Shown piece by piece: positions 13,347 to 27,565 of a stretch of DNA of 64,000 nt. Numbering within the stretch: the first letter of the stretch is position 1; each line of letters opens with the position of its first letter. This DNA comes from Astropecten irregularis (Eukaryota > Echinodermata > Asteroidea > Paxillosida > Astropectinidae), in the NCBI GenBank assembly GCA_963971285.1, contig OZ020244.1, forward strand, positions 32,116,001 through 32,180,000, given 5' to 3'. The notes under the pieces were generated by a model, which worked only from the letters and a program-made list of their open reading frames with translations, was not told the origin of the DNA and did not search any database. Position numbers and translations under genes: made by a program.

Positions 13347-13516
13347 GTGCACATGCACCACATACAAAATGGCCCTGCGTGTATGGCTACTATGTATGAT
13401 GTATCAATCTGTTTGCATTTGGTTCAAATTGGACCAGCCTTTACCAATAAAGAAAAATACAAATACCGCTCACCTGTATATGTTCTCTGGTGTCTTTTCA
13501 AGGCACTACTGAATTA

Positions 13517-13871
13517 GAATGCCTTATCACAGTGGCAACACACATTTGGTTGCTCACCTGTATTTTTTCTCATATGTCTCTTCAAGGAACTACTATCTGA
13601 GAATGCTCTATAACAGTGCGTACAAATATATGGCCGCTCTCCTGTATGTGTTCTCATATGTATCTTCAGGTTATCATTCCGTGAGAATGCTTTATCACAA
13701 TAGCTGCACACATATGGCTTCTCACCTGTATGCATTCTCAGGTGCAACTTCAAGGTATCATTGTGTGAGAATGCTTTATGACAGTGGCTACACACGTATG
13801 GCCGCTCACCTGTATGTGTTCTAATATGTGCCCTCAAGGTACTACTATATGAGAATGCCTGATCACAGTGG
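13517..13871 (-). pseudogene. Zinc-finger tail of the PRDM9-like gene, severed by the palindromic insertion
   Basis: Continues the finger array on the far side of the insertion at 13872-14287. On the minus strand it resumes exactly at HCDQAF. Recognition helices of four fingers follow: [37 protein letters not shown] fifth finger begins CDKAF and is stopped by TAA, although the next codons still read FSSALKRHQR and TGER. Linkers are TGERP/TGEKP at 84-bp spacing. The finger SDSSSLKRH ends MRKN, lacking the last His ligand. Removing the insertion would place these codons in frame with the array upstream. Confidence 0.85.
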
Positions 13872-14287
13872 GCAATTCCAGCGTAACGGACATGACAATT
13901 ACACAGTTTTTGCCTTATTCAGAGGATCATAAAGTAGGATTGGCAGTTTGCAAACAATTTTAATTAGGCTTATCAGACACATTTAACTATCAGTGACATA
14001 TGTAGTAAATTTTATGTAATTTCATTGAACAGTTGTAGAGAAAAAGCACTTCTTGTGACCGTAACGGACATGACAACTTAGTGTCATGTCCGTTACGGTC
14101 ACAAGAAGGGCATTTTCTCTACAACTGTTCAATGAAATTACATAAAATTTACTACATATGTCACAGATAGTTAAATGTGTCTGATAAGCCTAATTAAAAT
14201 TGTTTGCAAACTGCCAATCCTACTTTATGATCCTCTGAATAAGGCAAAAACTGTGTAATTGTCATGTCCGTTACGCTGGAATTGCTG
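13872..14287. mobile_element. 416-bp palindromic element inserted in the PRDM9-like finger array
   Basis: A near-perfect palindrome centred at about 14078; each arm is about 205 bp. The outer ends are GCAATTCCAGCGTAACGGAC and its complement. The motif GTAACGGACATGACA occurs at both the outer and inner end of each arm. It is flanked by AGTGG on both sides (13867-13871, 14288-14292), a 5-bp target duplication. No ORF, so non-autonomous. On the minus strand it adds the codons SAIPA and a TAA stop to the zinc-finger frame. Intact arms and duplication suggest a young insertion. I do not recognise the family. Confidence 0.85.
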
Positions 14288-17200
14288 AGTGGTAACACAC
14301 ATATGGCTGCTCACCTGTATGTGTTCTCATATGTGCCTTTAAGTTATTAGCCAGCGAGAATGCCTTATTACAGTGGCTACACACATGTGGCCGCTCACCT
14401 GTATGTGTTCTCATATGACTCTTCAAGTCACTTTTCTGTGCGAATGCCCAATCACAGTGGCTACACACAAATGGCCTCTCACCTGTATGTGTTCTCATCA
14501 CATGTGTCTTCAAAGTACTACTCCGTGTGAATGCCTTATCACAATAGCTACAAACATGACGCCTCTCTTCTGTGTGTGTTCTCATATGTTTCTTCAAGTC
14601 ACCATTCAGTGGGAATGCCCAATCACAGTGGCTACACACATATGGCTTCTCACCTGTATGCATTCTCATATGATTCTTCAAGTTACCACTCTGAATGAAT
14701 GCCTCACCACAATAGCTACAAACATGGCGTCTCTCTCCTGTATGTGTTCTCATATGTCTCTCTAAGTCACCATTCCCTGAGAATGCCTTATAACAGTGAA
14801 TACACACATATGGCCGCTCTCCTGTATGTGCTCTCAGATGTCTTTTCAAGAAACTACTGAATGAGAATGTCTTATCACAGTGGCTACACACATATGGTTT
14901 CTCAACTGTATTGTTTCTCATATGTCTCTTCAAGGCACTTCTATCTGAGAATGCCTTATCACAGTGGCTACAAATATATGGCCGCTCACCTGTATGTGTT
15001 CTCATATGAGTCTTAAGGCTCCTATTCCGTGTGAATGCCTTGGCACAGTGACTACACACATATGGCTGCTCACCTGTATGTAATCTCATGTGTATTTTAA
15101 GGCTACTATTCCGTGTGAATGCCTTGTCACAGTGGCTACACACATTTGGCCTCTCTCCTCTCTCTGTTCCTTCATATTTTGTCAACTGACTGCTCAGTAA
15201 CAACGTTTCATCAGCATGTGCCTTTTTGCTAGTGTGTCTAATTTGGTGAGTTTTGAATATCATAGTTTGGCAATTCCTGTCCTGGGAATGTTTTACCTTG
15301 TCACTGTGAGACCCCATCTGGTGCTCAATCAATTTCACATTAGCTGAGAAAGCCATTCCGCAAAAGTGACAATAGTATTGCCTCGTATAATCTGTAGTGT
15401 TTATACAGGAGTTTTCTTTCTCACAATAAGCTTTCCGACTGTTGTATATTTTCCTCAAAGGCTGTCTTGTGCTAAACGAGTTCTGAACTTGAGAAGCTAT
15501 TTTGGCATTGCATGCACTGATGTTGAATGCGGACACCTTTATCTTCTGAAGCTTAAGGTACTTGTACCACTCGGTAGATGTTCCATGGGAGAACTTCAGA
15601 TGTCCAGCCAGGAACATGTAATCAGAGAAGATCTTGTCACACTTTGGACAAGGATGGCGCAAAGAACCTGAGTAAGAAAGTATGAAAAGGATAATTAAGG
15701 ATCAATTTCATGGAGAACTTTGTGAAGAGGCATATGTATCATGCACATCACCAATGTGGTGTTATGTTGGCGTTGAAGATTTTCCTTTTTTAACTGGCAA
15801 GTTGTCTGTTTAGTTGCCTTTAATTATTTCTCAGTCTATCATTATGTAAATTTACCGACTCATTTTTCATCAAATTCCCATCAGAGAAACTGACTGGATT
15901 AGTTTTTAAGCCGTTGAAAAGTGAACAAAGAAAATTGAACGGAGCAGGATTTGAACCTGTGACCCCTGGAATACCCTACTGGCAATCCCTTTTTGAAGTT
16001 TGAAGGGAGGGACAGGTTTAAAAATCAATTACATTTGCAACTCTATCTGCATTAAAAAAGCCTAACTCAAATGAAAAACGTAATGCGAAAGGTAGTGTCA
16101 TTTGGTCACAATATAAATGGGTGCATTCTAACACAAGTCAGCCCTTACTGGGAATGGTCGTGCTATACTGCACAAAACAAGCGAGAGAATGGGGACGCGG
16201 TTGTCTGGTGTCGACCCGTGTCAGCTAATGCACCCAAAATAATACAGTAGATTAACTGCACAGGCAACGATGCAAAAATAAATCCTTACAAGAAGATTGT
16301 TTAAAAATGAAAATAAAAGATTTTGTTTGGTTACTTTTCATCCTTTGGACGCTGTGAGCTGTCACCGCAATTGCAAGCTCAGTTGCATATTCCTCTCCAT
16401 AGAAGACCAGTAACTCCTGCCCAGGGGAGATTGCCTTGAAGCTCCTGTAGTAAATTTCTCCGCAGTACTGATATGCCACTAGATTCTGTTCGGCTTCACT
16501 GCAAGCACAGTTTAAATAACGCATCCAGTTGCCTTTATTTGGGTTTTGGCCATCCACATAATGGCTTTGACCATCATGATCAAAAATCTGTTCGAAACAA
16601 AATACAAAAAGTTTAGGAAAATTAATTCACAAAATAAACAATTTTCTTGTTTGGAAATTTGAGTGCTGTACAATACACCGACTTTGCTGAAATTGTGAAA
16701 ATCAAATGATACATTGAAATATAGGAGTTAAAAAAAAAAACCTGAATAAAGTGGGATTCGAACCTGCAAGCATTAACCTACCTCCCATGTATAGCCACTG
16801 TCTTGGTAAGCTTCCCCAACTATCTCTCCTCCGTAGGGTCCAAACCGTACACCTTTGGGGAAAGCCTTCTTCGCCCAAACACCAAGACCAGCATTTTCGA
16901 TCCCGGGTTCTTTAACTACCAGTCCGTCGGGAAGGCTTTCCTTGGCTTGTTCTCTGCTTCCCTTTGGGACTGGGGTATCTTTGATGACAGTCAAGGGATG
17001 CTGAGGGCAGTCATTTTCATACAGCTCGTGACAGTCCTCACAATCTGAAAGTTTCAATTTTGAAGAAGTTTGAAGACTTTTCTTTAAAAGGGCATGTACA
17101 ACATTGGTAACAAATAAAAACAGAAATGTGCACAGATCTACATATAACTTTCAGGATATGAAGATGGTGGTGCTAGAAACATACCGTTAAAATATTTCTG

Positions 17201-19804
17201 CCTGAAATGTTGTACTTATCCAGAAATTAGTAAAATAAAGACCGAAAACAGTTTTGATCTCGGGGTAAGATCAAAATCATTGCTTACAGTTTTATAAGAA
17301 AAATTTAGTGGTTTTTTTTTGGTTTTTGCTATTTTCTCGTGACTCAGATGTCAGATTGAGCTCAAATTTTCACAGGTTTAATAATTATTTCATGAACATG
17401 CTGGATCACACAAAGCATAAGTGCTGTTATGTGACCTTTACCAATCATGTATTATATCTTTAATACTAAATCACCCCCAAAACAAAAGAATCTGTGCGAC
17501 TTGAATTATACATCAACATATTATTTCTAAGTTAATGAGTGCTTAAAGTTAGGAGGGCCTGATTTGTTTCGATCCTAGCAGGATCTTTCTCAAAGGATAT
17601 AGGAATTAGTAAAAAAGTTAATGAGAGTAAAAAGGCGTTTTATTTTATGTTCCTACATATGTAATTGTCATCATTTGGTTCATCCAAGTCTTTGTAGTTT
17701 TTCTGGGCACCTTCACGTTGCGGGTATCGGCATTCATTCACTGACCTTTTATCACCTATGAAGTTAAAAATTCAAATCAAGAAAAAAAAATCAAGATGTT
17801 GCATAATATTTCCTTCAAGATGCTTTTATTAATTTATGCCAAGGAAAAAATCATGCAGCAAAGAACAGAAATAAATCAACTCATAATTGAACAAAGAAAT
17901 AAAAGTCTTGTCTTAAAAAATTGACTGGAGTGAGATTTGAACCAGTGACCTCCAGAATGCCGCACCGGCACTCTTACCAACTGAGCTCTCAACTGAGTCC
18001 TATGTTGGTGGTGTCCCTATATTTAGTCAATTATCTTTGTTTGTTTGGCAGTCAGAAGCCATGGCTCATATGTGCAGCATTAACAATTCCGCAATCTGAG
18101 AAACAGTAGGCCTCTACATACATGTATAGGGGATCACTCAAAGAGGATACAGCTTTTTAATCAATATAATCATCAAATAACCACAAGGGAAACTGACTGG
18201 ATTAATTTCAAGTCTTTGTAAAGTGAACAAAGAAAAAATTGACTGGAGCGGGATTCGAACCAGTGACCTCCATAGTGTGTGTGTCATTTTAACAAATTGC
18301 CAGTGTATGAAAATGAAAACATAATTTACTAACCTTGCAAATGCAAATGAACAACTGAAATTTCAACTACTGTATCTTACAAATTCATGAACGCATATTG
18401 AATTTTAAAAACAGACAGTCCTGAGACCACAACTGCTTATCACATTTCAATTTCTGTGCCCAGCCTTTTCAAATGCAAATTTATGCAACCTACCAGTTTT
18501 TCTTGGAGAAGTTCCAGGCTTTGAGTCCACATACTTTGGTTTTCTTTTGCAAAAAGGCCCACTCATAAATTCCGGCTTGGATACAGATAAACCTGAAGAC
18601 AAAATATTAAAGAAGAGATGGAAGAGAGTTTGCATGAAAGGTCGTGTATAAGCAATATCTCATCACTTGTGGTCAATTCATTTATGTTCAATAAATCAGT
18701 CTGTTATTTAAAAAAAAAAAAAAATGCAGCCTTTTAAGGAATAAACTAATTTAATGGTGAGAAAATGACGAATACAACTGATTAAAATTCAAAGCTTGCT
18801 TCTGTGGAAGCGGAAGCAGAGGAGGAAGCGGAAACTGAGGCGGAGGAGAAGGCGGAGGCGGAGGAGAAGGCGGAGGTGGAGGAGGAAGCAAAAGCAGAGA
18901 CAGAGGCAGAGGAGGAGGAAGCGGAGGCAGAGGTGCAGGAGGAAGAAGAGGAGGAAGCGGAGAAGGCGGAGGAGGAAGCGGAGGAGGCAGAAGTGGAGGC
19001 GGAGGAGGAAGAAGAGGAGGAAGCGGAGAAGGCGGAGGAGGAAGCGGAGGAGGCAGAAGTGGAGGAGGCAGAAGTGGAGGCCGAGGAGGAAGAAGAGGAG
19101 GAAGCGGAGAAGGCGGAGGAGGAAGAAGAGGAGGAAGCGGAGGAGGCAGAAGTGGAGGCCGAGGAGGAAGAAGAGGAGGAAGCGGAGAAGGCGGAGGAGG
19201 AAGCGGAGGAGGAAGTGGAGGAGGCAGAAGTGGAGGCAGGAGAGGAAGAAGAGGAGGAAGCGGAGAAGGCGGAGGAGGAAGCGAAGGAGGAAGCAGAGGA
19301 GGCAGAAGTGGAGGCGGAGGAGGCAGCAGAGGAGGCAGAAGTGGAGGCGGAGGAGGCAGAAGTGGAGGCGGAGGAGGAAGCGGAGGCGGAGACAGAGACA
19401 GAGGCGGAGGCAGAGGTGGAGACAGAGGTGGCGGAGGCGGAGGCGGAGGCGGAGCTGGAGACAGAGGAGGAAGCGGAGGAGGAAGCGGAAGAGGAAGCGG
19501 AAGCAGGAGGCGGAAGCGGAGGCGGAGGCAGAGGCGGAGGCGGAAACAGAGGAGGAAGCGGAGGCGGAGGTAGAGGCAGAGGCAAAGGAGGACGCGGAAT
19601 CGGAGGAGGAGAAGGCGGAAGAGGAATTCAATTCAAACTGCTGTTGATTCATTGCACAAGTACAGAACACTCACCAATTTCCACTAGCCTCTCATAATTC
19701 TCCTTCATGTTTTGCAGTCTCAGCTTGTCATATTCTGAAAGTTCTGTGAACTCACTGTCACTGAAGAACTGCTCAATGCCATCTGCGCCACTTGCCTTGG
19801 ACAT
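14271..19804 (-). CDS. PRDM9: PRDM9/Meisetz-like histone methyltransferase with KRAB, PR/SET and C2H2 finger array (truncated)
   Basis: In vertebrates PRDM9 binds DNA through its finger array and trimethylates H3K4/K36 to place meiotic recombination. Exons (minus, 5' to 3'): 19833-19675, 18592-18494, 17755-17657, 17044-16782, 16587-16335, 15667-14271. From ATG 19804-19802 they join in phase to 746 codons. Domains: KRAB (FSDSEFTELSEYDKLRLQNM, residues about 10-44); SSXRD-like segment (YKDLDEPNDDNYIY, about 95-110); zinc knuckle CEDC-x7-CPQH (111-125); PR/SET with FGPYGGEI, GNWMRYLNCA and LLVFYGEEYA, keeping the catalytic Tyr; two isolated C2H2 fingers; then ten tandem fingers with TGE(R/K/Q)P linkers. 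Fingers differ mainly at helix positions -1, 3 and 6. The third array finger lacks its last His. The stop comes from the insertion at 13872-14287. The donor at 16334 (AAAA|GTAACC) was chosen because it keeps phase. A coding exon upstream of 19833 is not excluded. Confidence 0.9.
15888..15975 (-). mobile_element. tRNA-derived SINE fragment
   Basis: The minus strand has a B box AGGTTCAAATCCTGCTCC and the tail words TCTTTGTTCAC and AATCCAGTCAG, shared with 18188-18275. In the PRDM9-like intron 15668-16334. Confidence 0.5.
17084..17463. mobile_element. TTAA-flanked MITE family C, divergent copy 3
   Basis: Begins TTAAAAGGGCATGTACAAC and ends TGTATTATATCTTTAA. The interior shares GAAGATGGTGGTGCTAGAAA with family C but has a different right half (GTGACCTTTACCAATCATG) shared with 19886-20262 and 51597-51984. 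In a PRDM9-like intron. Confidence 0.75.
17536..17600 (+). repeat. Repeat family E, short copy
   Basis: TTAGGAGGGCCTG then CGATCCTAGCAGGATC then TTTCTCAAAGG. Intronic. Confidence 0.5.
17926..18010 (-). mobile_element. tRNA-derived SINE
   Basis: The minus strand contains A-box-like GAGCTCAGTTGGTAAGAG and B-box-like GGTTCAAATC at tRNA spacing, then an AT-rich tail. In the PRDM9-like intron 17756-18493. Confidence 0.6.
18188..18275 (-). mobile_element. tRNA-derived SINE fragment
   Basis: B box GGTTCGAATCCCGCTCCAG on the minus strand, followed by TTTCTTTGTTCAC and AATCCAGTCAG. Same family as 17926-18010. Confidence 0.55.
18808..19626 (+). repeat. ~820-bp purine-only minisatellite in a PRDM9-like intron
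   Basis: The + strand is an almost unbroken run of A and G with a C every 6-12 bases, built from GGAGGC, GGAAGC, GGAGAA and AGAAGTGGAGGC units; higher-order units of about 60 bp repeat. All frames are open over hundreds of codons (Glu/Ala, Arg or Ser/Ala runs), which is a composition effect. It lies inside the intron between exons 19833-19675 and 18592-18494, whose splice sites fit without it. Such tracts can form triplex or G-quadruplex structures. Confidence 0.85.
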
Positions 19805-23700: not shown

Positions 23701-26700
23701 CACACAAATTCTACTATCCCTTTATGAATTTGAACATTTTATACATGTTTTGTTTTTTAGTTTATTTGAAATTAATTGTAAACTTTACAAAACATTGCAA
23801 TTATCATTTGTTTGTTTGATAAATGCTCTATTCTGGTATATTAGCAAGGCAAACAAAGAAAGCCACTAAGTTTACTTTTATATTTTGCTTTATTTGGTTA
23901 TAACCCACTAGTAAAATATATGGTATATAATTGGTAATGCCCAAAAGATTATGTAGTTCCAGTGTGAAGGCTTACTGTATACTCAATGAAGTCTTCATAG
24001 TTCACATGCTATGCTTCTGTCTGAAATGTTATCATTGTCTTGCAGACTGCTTCTGAATACCTCTAAAAATGTAAAATTAACAAGGAAAGTTGTTTTGTTG
24101 TTTACTCGAAAACATGCAAATGCATTTTGCAATAATGAATTATTGAATTTGATGTTTTCCTTTATACAACAAATTTGACCAATGATGTACTAGACCTGGA
24201 TTCGATTTCACCAAACTCATCATAACTTACTATCAGTATCACTCATAGGACTTATGATGCATTGCAGCCCTGCATAGGATACTATGGGTTTTCCTTCGTA
24301 ACTCTAGTTACGATTAAGTTTTGTGAAATCGACCCCTGTAATGGTAGGTCAATGTTATAAACAAAACCAGCAAATTATGTTTCTACTGCTTTCATTTTTA
24401 CCTAGTTCATTCAGTTGGCAAATTATTTAATATTAAGTAGCACAGCCGTGCTTTGAACAGGCAAGAGGTGCTTAATCCTTGTGTAAAATATAACCTCACT
24501 TTGAAGTCCCATCAACTTTTCCTTCAGGTCTGAGAATCACCACCTCCCGAAATACCCGATGACCGTCACCCTGAAGCACAACCACAACCACCCTCTGAAG
24601 GCGGCCGGCGTGCTGCGACACCGCGACGTCTCCAAGGATGTGCGCAAGAAGCTGATCAAGCTCTTCCGGGCAGGCCACTCGGCCTCCAGCGCCCTGAACA
24701 TGCACCAGTATGACCTGCAGATGGAGCACGGGGACGACTACGTCTTCCTGAGTGAGGATCGTCATCACAATCCAGACCTGAACTTCACTTGGAGGTACGT
24801 ACGTGCTCTCATCTCAAATTGCCTCGGCCCTATTTCATAGAGCTTCTAATCCCAATCCCCTTAAATTTGCTAAGCACATACATGTAAATGTCTTGCTTAG
24901 CAAAAAAGTAATACAGTCCAAAAATTATGTTTTATGCCAAATAAAAAACATCTTAGTGCTAGTCTTGCACTGTTAGACACAAGCAAAACACATCATGTAG
25001 AATTTTTACGGGCAACCCCTTTTATATAAGCAAGACTTTTGGTGTTGTGCAAATTGATTGGCACTTGATGTGTTGAGACTTGGCACAGAGGTTAGACTTT
25101 GCCATGAATATTAAATTCAAAGGAAAGGGTTGTTCATCGCGGTGGTAAACAGATAAGAAGAAGGGTGATCAAAGTCACGCGATGTCGTGTTGCTGGTAGC
25201 AACGTTTCGGCTGCTGGTACTGATGGCCTTCATCAGGCAACTGAAGAACTGGATGCTGTGGTGTCTGTTATATCCTGTTGGGCGGGATTTGGGTTAACAA
25301 TGCCGTGATCAGCGTAGTGTGGACGGGTCACTGTAGTGGACGTCGTACGGCTCACTGTGCGGTCAGCTGGGTTAGGTTAAATTGCACACAGTCTAGACAC
25401 AGAGGCACTGACAGTTTCAATTTCACCAATTACTATTCATCTTGTCTTTTCAAGCCAGCTCCTTATCAAAGAAAAATTTCTTCAGCATGAACATAACATT
25501 CATTTCTATCCCTCTTGTGTTGATCAAATGAGATTGCCTCTCATAGTGAGTTTGTTTTAAAAAAGGATTTAGTCATTTATTTTTGAACCACTCATGGGCA
25601 TCTTACTTTGCATAAAACCCCCAAAATTGACATACAGTGGAGCGTCACTATAATGAACACTACACCAAACATTTGGCTGTACCGAATATCATCCTTGGCT
25701 CTCAATTTTTGTGTACAATACATACCCAATATGGTTCTTTAAATCACTATAACGAATGACCACTATAGCAGACAATATCTGCGCATTTCGCCATGTTCGT
25801 TAGAGGCGTTCCACTGTAGTGCTTTTTAATGAACTGTGATCACTTCACAGTTATTGTTCATAACCAAATAACGTGAAAGACTAAATGCACTTTTCTTTCT
25901 ATCCATGATCCGTCACATCCGTGTAGGTTGTACACCCAGATATTTGGAAAGTCCAGAACCCACAGCACCAAAAAACAAAAACTCATGACGGATGACGAGA
26001 CCATCAATGAAGATATTGGTAATAGCAAGGACAAGAAGGCCTTCTGTGTCAGCTCCAACATGGACATGGCGGACATGCTGAGGGAGAAGATTGACAAGTA
26101 CAACATGGAGAATGGCGACTGCGTCCGGATGAAAGTGGAGGAGGATCAGTTTGTCATAGCCATCGTCACCCCTCTCATGAAGCGCACCCACACCCTGGTG
26201 AAGTACGCCGGAGAGATGGTGTTCATGGACGCCTCGGGGAACATGAGCCGGCACAACAGCCATGTGTTCCTGATGATGACACCCAGCTTTGCCGGAGGCC
26301 TGCCCTTGGGCGCCTTCATCACCACCAACGACTCCAAGCAACACGTTCAATCTGCCATCCAGCTCGGCCAGGAGATCATGGGCGACACTGCCTTCTACGG
26401 TAGAGGGATGGCGGGACCCGAAGTCTTCTTCACGGATGACCTGGACACCGAAAGGCATGCGCTGGGGACAGTCTACCCGCAGTCGACGCAAATTCTGTGT
26501 ATTTATCAGGTTCTTCAGACCTTCTGGAAGTACCTCTTTGATCCCAAGTTCAAGAACCAGAGAGTGGATGGACCTTACCTCTTCCAGTTGATGAAAACCC
26601 TTCTGTATGCATCTTCAGACAGTGCTTTGGAAATGGCTTATGACAGCATCATCCACGACGAGATTGTAGAGAAGTACTCAGCAGTGAAATCCATGTTTCT

Positions 26701-27565
26701 CCGGATGTATGAGAGGAGAACGGAGTGGGCGCTCTGCTACCTGAACACCTTGCAACTGCAGGGCAACAATACAAGTAACTATTGCGAGTCTGCAATGAGA
26801 ATCCTCAAGGACAAGATTTTCCATCGCGCAAAGACGTACAATGTTGTCCAGCTCGTGGACTTCCTCCTGACCAGAATGGATGAGTACTACCAGAAACGCC
26901 TCCTGGACGTTGCCCACAACAGGCTGAATGAGGCTCTCACGTCCCGGTATGTCTCTAGCGTGAACAGGGTAGCCTGCAGCCCTGCGGACCAGATCATTCA
27001 GGAATCAACGATGGTGTTCCTCGTCCCCCACGAAAAGCCCAGTGAGCCTCATTACCGAGTCGACATGACCGTGGGCCTGTGCACCTGCCGGATCGGCAGC
27101 ACTGGTGGTCCTTGCTGCCACCAGAAGGATGTGCTGATGGCCGTCTACATTCCCTCCTGGAACTTCATTCCGGTCGACGACGAAGCCATGAGCAAACTCC
27201 TGTTCCAAATCGCGGGGAAGCCCTCCGAGGAATCCACCAAGACATTGAAGCGTCTGAGGGATGATTCCGACGTCCCAGACACCGATGACTTTGATTCAAC
27301 GGCAGCACCCTTGTTTGAGGACACGCCGCTCGAAGCAAGGAGAAGCCTCACTAAGGGAGCGTCCAAGACGAAAGTTGCCTCCCCACAGAAGGAATCCCAG
27401 AGGAAGGTGTTGGCAGACCTAGATGCCTTTGTTGCCAAGATCAAGAACGGGTACCTGAACAACCCCTGCGTGTACAAAGACGCGTTTGAGGACTTCGTCC
27501 ACCAGACTAAGAAATTCAAGACAGATGCTGAACTGGTGTGTGCCTTGTATACCTTTGGAGAATGA
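20779..27565 (+). CDS. MULE-transposase-like protein with zinc DNA-binding module and SWIM finger, probably domesticated
   Basis: Five exons joined in phase: 20779-20901, 22152-22355, 23470-23621, 24528-24794, 25927-27565; about 795 residues. The start MENMEEISDE is chosen for its position after a purine-rich leader; the frame stays open upstream to 20566. Exons 2-4 carry a GCM1/WRKY-like zinc module: CQHMTFPRS, NCPAVLIVIV, then LKHNHNHPL. The large exon holds a Mutator-type DDE domain: first Asp in VFMDASGN (26228), second in FFTDDLDTERHAL, then NNTSNYCESAMRILKD. The usual C-x2-H after the second Asp is CIYQ here. A SWIM finger CxC-x8-CxH lies at 27080-27121. The C-terminus is acidic and Ser/Lys-rich. 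Clean introns and an intact frame in a repeat-rich region argue for a host gene; a MULE with introns is the alternative. Its specific role is unknown. Confidence 0.85.
21083..21723. mobile_element. Outer terminal-inverted-repeat element holding a nested foldback
   Basis: Ends ATAGATCAGCGCGGAC and GTCCGCACTGATCTAT are inverted copies. The element at 21173-21444 is inside it. A segment of about 110 bp (TATTGTCTGAGGAAAAA through AAAATATTCGGAAAAC) occurs at 21486-21601 and again directly outside at 21724-21837. In intron 1 of the MULE-like gene. Confidence 0.55.
21173..21444 (+). mobile_element. Foldback element carrying a captured exon-like segment, copy 1
   Basis: Perfect 27-bp inverted termini starting GGTAACGGTGTACAAGCAGG. 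The interior encodes VRKLYFYSDM and, after a short gap, LRTQEHLLKVKNIILEQ. These residues are shared with the element at 33661-34169, whose termini are different. Confidence 0.75.
21916..22036. mobile_element. Foldback MITE family F, copy 1
   Basis: Ends AGTTGCGATGATCGTAACCC and GGGTTACGATCATCGCAACT; internal GGGACTGGGACC. A second copy is at 33325-33470. Confidence 0.8.
22877..23240 (+). mobile_element. TTAA-flanked MITE family C, copy 5
   Basis: Starts TTAAAGGTAGTATCATACTT and ends TGTGATACAACCTTTAA. In intron 2 of the MULE-like gene. Confidence 0.85.
23303..23423 (+). mobile_element. tRNA-derived SINE fragment
   Basis: B box CAGGTTCAAATCCTGCTCCA on the + strand. Upstream head partly decayed. 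Intronic. Confidence 0.5.
24200..24336. repeat. Foldback repeat family D, copy 2
   Basis: TTCGATTTCACCAAACTCAT at the left and TTTTGTGAAATCGACCCC at the right; internal CATAGGACTTATGATGCATT. Intronic. Confidence 0.65.
24827..25090. repeat. Degenerate family B repeat
   Basis: Left end CCCTATTTCATAGAGCTTC and internal TTGCTAAGCACA; the right end is not clear. In intron 4 of the MULE-like gene. Confidence 0.45.
25199..25240 (-). ncRNA. Hammerhead-ribozyme-like motif, copy 4
   Basis: Minus strand: UUGC, CUGAUGA (25236-25230), A, GGC, a 14-nt loop, GCC, GAAAC, GUU, GCUA. All invariant core bases are present. There is one extra A between the core and stem II, and stem III is reduced to AC/GU. Stem I is GC/GC with a mismatch before UU/A. 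The neighbouring sequence 25106-25190 is repeated at 8310-8400. In intron 4 of the MULE-like gene, antisense to it. Confidence 0.6.

Follow-up and report, generated by a model that had tools for sequence, protein, structure and literature searches.

Does a mobile element inside a PRDM9-like zinc-finger array alter the target choice of a working hotspot-setting protein, or does it interrupt a copy of lesser consequence? This question is raised by a palindrome in the window, the whole 64,000-nucleotide stretch analysed here (C1:32116001-32180000 in the Astropecten irregularis genome of 475.7 Mb and 168 contigs). The preliminary description had read it as a near-perfect palindromic transposon of 416 bp, bounded by an intact 5-bp duplication (AGTGG) and truncating the array. 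The features of the insertion, in window coordinates, are as follows.

13866..13869, no strand: left target-site copy CAGT, placed by the family rule of a 4-bp duplication and by sequence
13870..14285, no strand: palindromic copy assigned to a MITE family, its last CC missing here (family unit 418 bp, GGGCAATT...AATTGCCC)
13872..14075, plus strand: left arm of the palindrome, 204 nt
14082..14285, minus strand: right arm of the palindrome, 201/204 complementary
14271..14273, minus strand: stop codon TAA from the element
14286..14290, no strand: altered right edge (TG replaces CCC) and the remaining AGT of the target-site copy

The palindrome itself is as described, with arms of 204 nt each that differ at 3 positions and enclose a centre of 6 nt. 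Its RNA fold reached −350.9 kcal/mol (z = −47) and none of 100 shuffles was equally good, indicating that the palindrome is not due to chance. When the genome was searched with one arm, 370 first-look candidates came up and the best 40 of them were scored; the element edges were inspected at 28 loci, all from the best-scoring matches. The element start GGGCAATT, including its GG, was found in 28/28 relatives inspected, although the query itself began with GG and the ranking therefore favours it, so that the left edge alone is not independent evidence. Independent of the query's GG is the right end AATTGCCC (CC), which was present in all 25 relatives having both ends at full spacing. Identical 4-bp flanks enclose 22 of these 25 and the remaining three match at 3 of 4 positions. 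In the window copy the duplication reads CAGT (13866-13869) versus AGT (14288-14290), and the GG at 13870-13871 represents the first two bases of the element. Given that GG is present in 28/28 relatives, the 5-bp match AGTGG is coincidental and the GG belongs to the element; by the same edges, the GG of the target beside the window element is a chance match to the element's own. The 5-bp duplication was thus ruled out by the relatives' edges (4-bp flanks, own GG), and the unit measures 418 bp instead of 416 bp; the empty site before insertion is identical under the 4-bp and 5-bp readings. An arm search had been expected to reveal copies with 5-bp duplications: many copies were indeed found, but the duplications at those inspected are of 4 bp.

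Allowing up to 2 mismatches, the 38-nt terminus gave 222 + 228 = 450 matches in the genome and the reversed control gave 0. The family therefore comprises at least about 225 copies; the number would rise if loss of one end is frequent, and several of the copies listed do lack an end. With terminal inverted repeats and a fixed 4-bp duplication in the family, and a damaged right edge in the window copy, the element is, on sequence grounds, a non-autonomous palindromic DNA transposon (MITE). A 3558-bp relative that shares these ends and is flanked by GTAT left and right (L062, C9:9855750-9859307, within the stretch C9:9855700-9859360) may be a decayed partner of the palindromic MITE; its 182-codon ORF had no Pfam match. 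Shortened or one-armed palindrome copies were also seen (L009, L015 and L028), as though hairpin arms were deletable. Four 10-kb stretches around short or single-arm copies (L029-L032) were aligned in search of a transposase; the ORFs listed for two of them, L030 and L031, looked low-complexity or short. Elsewhere in the window (25928-27565) a 545-codon ORF bears a weak, below-cut-off resemblance to ZSWIM/MULE transposase domains; it had no PDB match, and no link to the palindromic element was made.

To date the insertion, the window copy was compared over 414 positions with 24 full-length relatives, each turned for best fit to the window. The 24 best-scoring copies carry 0-6 differences each from their consensus, a spread that is underestimated because the relatives were chosen for similarity. 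The window copy differs from the 24-copy consensus at 2/414 positions, one common to 4/24 relatives and one private, and its altered right edge falls outside the compared positions. One private substitution in 414 together with this altered edge suggests that the copy is young. Recency had been argued before from the near-identical arms, and the age stands whereas the argument does not: the arms of the 24 relatives likewise differ at 0-5 positions, making arm identity a weak clock, which was dropped in favour of private changes.

On the minus strand, the frame at the insertion runs Cys-Tyr-His and then Ser-Ala-Ile-Pro-Ala-stop, with array finger 11 split between H and C of its CxxC. Ten array fingers precede this stop in the element, and fingers 11 onward are lost from the frame. 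When the flanks were joined by script, Cys-Tyr-His-Cys was restored and the frame regained. The split finger, the five element codons followed by a stop, the truncation of the array and the rejoining upon excision thus all agree with what had been described. The prediction of four more intact fingers held only in part. The joined frame restores finger 11 and runs through two intact fingers, but the next has Asn as its last zinc ligand and the one after it, finger 15, is broken by TAA at 13516-13514. The same His-to-Asn change of the last ligand affects fingers 3 and 14 of the window array; these are the two ligand losses referred to below. By the same search, the arrays of two other copies described below (C20B and C9) show neither ligand loss nor stop, and the sole flag of a third (C20A) is a first, non-array finger. 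By these lesions and the finger comparisons given below, the window array looks stale and damaged, and the copy already aged.

The gene that carries the array lies on the minus strand and was resolved into the following parts.

19673..19804, minus strand: KRAB-like exon, beginning at ATG (19804), conserved in a paralog and without Pfam match
18459..18566, minus strand: piece of one more exon, with partial conservation in paralog C20B and provisional limits
17657..17755, minus strand: exon at the SSXRD position, placed by position and frame, without Pfam SSXRD match
16782..17044, minus strand: PR/SET exon 1
16335..16587, minus strand: PR/SET exon 2
14271..15667, minus strand: last exon, with a PRDM9-type first finger, a spacer with one isolated finger, 10 array fingers and the cut finger 11
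13514..13866, minus strand: array remnant past the element, with the rest of finger 11, fingers 12-13, finger 14 and finger 15

Four exons, from that at the SSXRD position to the last, join in frame through GT-AG introns to the stop at 14273-14271. The exon-joining model covers this part of the gene, and the KRAB-like exon lies upstream of it; the latter is free of frameshifts and stops, as are the four joined exons before the element. A GC after the SET core was considered as a lost splice donor and rejected, as a downstream phase-1 GTAACC donor fits the next exon. A purine-rich tandem repeat with periods of 6 to 78 occupies positions 18806-19611, separating the KRAB-like exon from the conserved piece that follows it.

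The PRDM9-like identity, previously argued from the array, is borne out by the SET core and first finger, whose best solved-structure match is PRDM9 4ijd (E = 1e-46 over 203 query residues), followed by PRDM11 (E = 7e-31) and weaker matches to the other listed PRDMs. In Pfam, with no PRDM9 family in its match list, the best family for the PR domain is PRDM2_PR (E = 6e-45). The HPCPKC finger just after SET aligns with HPCPSC of PRDM9 4ijd, and Tyr is kept in GYTWE, IYYRS and FYGEEY of the window SET; these would be the catalytic tyrosines. Over 44 residues the KRAB-like exon is 80% identical to its counterpart in C20B, and presumably resembles ancestral KRAB. It had no Pfam match up to E = 10, and the SSXRD-position exon had no SSXRD match in Pfam, so that both labels rest on position, paralog conservation and presumed resemblance. 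An ancestral KRAB in the sea urchin PRDM9 ortholog is described in an excerpt of PMC8835667. Judged by its exons, the window gene is a PRDM9 homolog, largely domain-complete. Matches to zf-CW occur at 4 places in the genome and are candidates for the PRDM9 partner ZCWPW1.

A search of the genome with the PR/SET peptide returned 27 matches. Both PR/SET exons were found at four places, accounting for 8 matches: the window, two neighbouring loci on C20 (C20A and C20B) and one locus on C9. First-PR-exon pieces occur at three places on C18 (6 matches), and at each of them one piece or more contains a stop; here lie three PRDM9-like copies with partial PR exons and open arrays of 9, 21 and 22 fingers (L044-L046, C18:16618800-16669900). 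PR fragments were found at five places near C1:1.6 Mb (5 matches), a region of tandem ORFs of up to 1112 codons and up to 34 fingers (L047-L050, C1:1612000-1646700); with a PRDM9 PR-exon fragment running straight into a C2H2 array, these ORFs form an apparent PR-fragment/zinc-finger fusion family. Another 8, weaker matches possibly represent further PRDM genes. A search with the unique stretch of the last exon had 10 matches, at 100% for the window itself only and hence with no second haplotype among them; it also hit C22, where the PR/SET search reported none.

Among the copies with both PR/SET exons, C20B (L042, C20:10782000-10791700) possesses the KRAB-like, SSXRD-position, PR/SET and array parts, while the KRAB of C20A is degenerate. 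The C9 copy (L043 and L053, C9:24473000-24491990) retains its KRAB-like exon only partially, and its SET motif reads GSAWE versus GYTWE or GYSWE in the others, the Tyr being lost; further C2H2 fingers lie upstream of it in the same stretch. In an unrooted four-gene tree the window copy paired with C9, and C20A with C20B (100% bootstrap support, 200 replicates).

Which of these copies looks like a working one can be approached through its fingers. In species with PRDM9-directed recombination, according to parts of PMC5519329, fingers closely resemble one another and the DNA-contact sites show high amino-acid diversity. We therefore scored both properties as relative comparisons, with no cut-off, among PRDM9-family arrays only. 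Finger identity was calculated from strict 84-nt fingers with contact codons excluded (13 in the window, 23 in C9, 18 in C20A and 7 in C20B). Mean identity was 0.800 (0.779-0.821) in the joined window array, 0.820 (0.796-0.843) in C9, 0.877 (0.845-0.909) in C20A and 0.942 (0.924-0.961) in C20B, the last resting on 7 scorable fingers only, with the first array finger one residue short. The C18 arrays gave 0.828-0.835 and one array near C1:1.6 Mb 0.911. The window value is the lowest among 8 arrays, but its interval overlaps those of C9 and the C18 arrays, so that it is not the only stale one. Positions −1, 3 and 6 accounted for 0.266 of the diversity in the joined window array (0.258 for the part ahead of the element), 0.260 in C9, 0.263-0.273 in the C18 arrays, 0.324-0.368 in the C1:1.6-Mb arrays, 0.344 in C20A and 0.417 in C20B, placing the window among the lowest of 11 arrays. 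The nearest finger lay within the same array for 2/13 window fingers, 4/23 of C9, 7/18 of C20A and 4/7 of C20B, and the copies are poorly separated. Turnover and contact-focused diversity are thus low in the window array but high in C20A and C20B; lacking this signature, the window gene was classed as a PRDM9 homolog and not as an active hotspot setter. Constraint is nonetheless visible in its other parts. Against C20B, dN/dS over the KRAB-like, SSXRD-position and PR/SET parts was 0.22 (0.14-0.36), indicating that they were constrained for much of the time since the split; against the sister copy C9, over the parts without KRAB, it was 0.56 (0.31-1.05), a weaker constraint. With the constraint against C20B and splice sites that fit in the model, the window gene is not obviously dead. 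C20B, which has every part sought and the most homogeneous array among those compared, appears the best candidate for a working meiotic PRDM9.

We consider, with a probability of roughly two in three, that a young 4-bp-duplicating MITE in finger 11 of a PRDM9 paralog left 10 fingers with a small effect on hotspots, C20B being the better meiotic candidate. On this reading, a young non-autonomous palindromic MITE inserted into array finger 11 with a 4-bp target duplication. The last exon now stops five codons into the insertion and keeps 10 array fingers, as read directly from the sequence. As this stop lies within the last exon, the messenger should escape junction-dependent decay, and transcription of the gene, if it occurs, would yield a 10-finger PRDM9 that retains its upstream parts. 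C-terminal fingers read the 5' part of the site, and their loss would delete that part of the recognition site. Because the window array is no longer turning over and is eroding, and C20B is the fitter candidate, the effect on hotspot choice would be small. Most likely, these comparisons suggest, the outcome is a shortened paralog that is redundant or losing its role, and the meiotic work would fall to one of the C20 copies. Parts of the salmonid report (PMC11703093) have its authors describing a PRDM9 with a nonsense mutation inside the array as shortened and possibly still functional. The earlier expectation of a changed target choice is accordingly half kept: the array is shortened, but the importance of this is weakened by three other PR/SET copies, two of them with turnover, and by the staleness of the window array. 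The window copy probably matters less than the preliminary description supposed.

The alternatives overlap one another and this reading, and their probabilities are not exclusive. One is a neutral insertion into a gene that had become a pseudogene beforehand. The two His-to-Asn ligand losses, the TAA in finger 15 and the scant turnover would fit such decay, as would a sister C9 whose KRAB-like exon is only partly retained and whose GYxWE motif has lost its Tyr, and a dN/dS against C9 whose interval reaches 1.05; with the KRAB-like exon and the four joined exons open up to the element, however, and a dN/dS of 0.22 against C20B, we hold this to be a minority possibility. It is unlikely, in turn, that the element created a working short-array allele: its 10-finger protein would still direct breaks, at changed targets, and a longer allele may segregate alongside it. 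Exons and splice sites that are intact in the model between the SSXRD-position exon and the array, a conserved SET core, the low dN/dS against C20B and a stop in the last exon would permit such a protein, but its array shows little turnover, has a contact-site share among the lowest of 11 and lost a zinc ligand in finger 3, and function can come from other copies. That a transposon-made, functional short-array PRDM9 allele is segregating in the population we regard as improbable; if true, a single mobile-element event would have reprogrammed the binding of one PRDM9 paralog in a host where hotspot control is divided among, or contested by, several PRDM9 copies.

If expressed, the window transcript would carry a very stable hairpin, and the transcribed 204-bp arms could silence the copy through its messenger by dsRNA processing, editing or nuclear retention. 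The fold energy and z-score given above speak for such a hairpin, but an equal fold is expected of any full family copy and the effect would follow by inference from it; we think silencing of this kind quite improbable. Palindromes are prone to assembly chimeras; an artefact of that sort is scarcely credible here, given that the 418-bp unit recurs at other loci with their own 4-bp duplications (22/25 exact) and 450 termini.

We therefore return to a young MITE in a paralog of limited influence: by its sequence, the insertion is real and of a familiar kind, and the gene it struck is an important one. The insertion alone would be an ordinary MITE hit. Its interest lies in a natural shortening of a PRDM9 array that is both clean and datable, in a host that keeps several PRDM9 paralogs, which span stages from C20B, with its homogeneous, contact-focused array, to C9, with its lost SET-motif tyrosine. 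With copies at such different stages, the genome lends itself to studying how copies decay and which of them governs recombination. Narrow word searches of the literature for a transposon inside a PRDM9 array found nothing.

Compared with known systems, the element resembles palindromic MITEs, which are non-autonomous DNA transposons, in its long inverted repeats, short duplications, hundreds of termini and absence of visible coding capacity; its particulars are a 4-bp duplication and a GGG end, from which no superfamily was matched. The host gene resembles PRDM9 (Meisetz) in a PR/SET and first finger that match 4ijd, with KRAB-like and SSXRD-position exons upstream. Concerted evolution of fingers characterizes metazoan Meisetz orthologs in parts of PMC2779102. 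The window array, by contrast, is stale, cut by a transposon and only one of several paralogs. As far as the parts of PMC11703093 and PMC5519329 cover truncated or array-mutated salmonid paralogs and duplicated vertebrate PRDM9, respectively, the starfish case is like both, with duplication, decay of some copies and a full copy that stays, and it differs from both in that one lesion of the window copy is a MITE inside the array.
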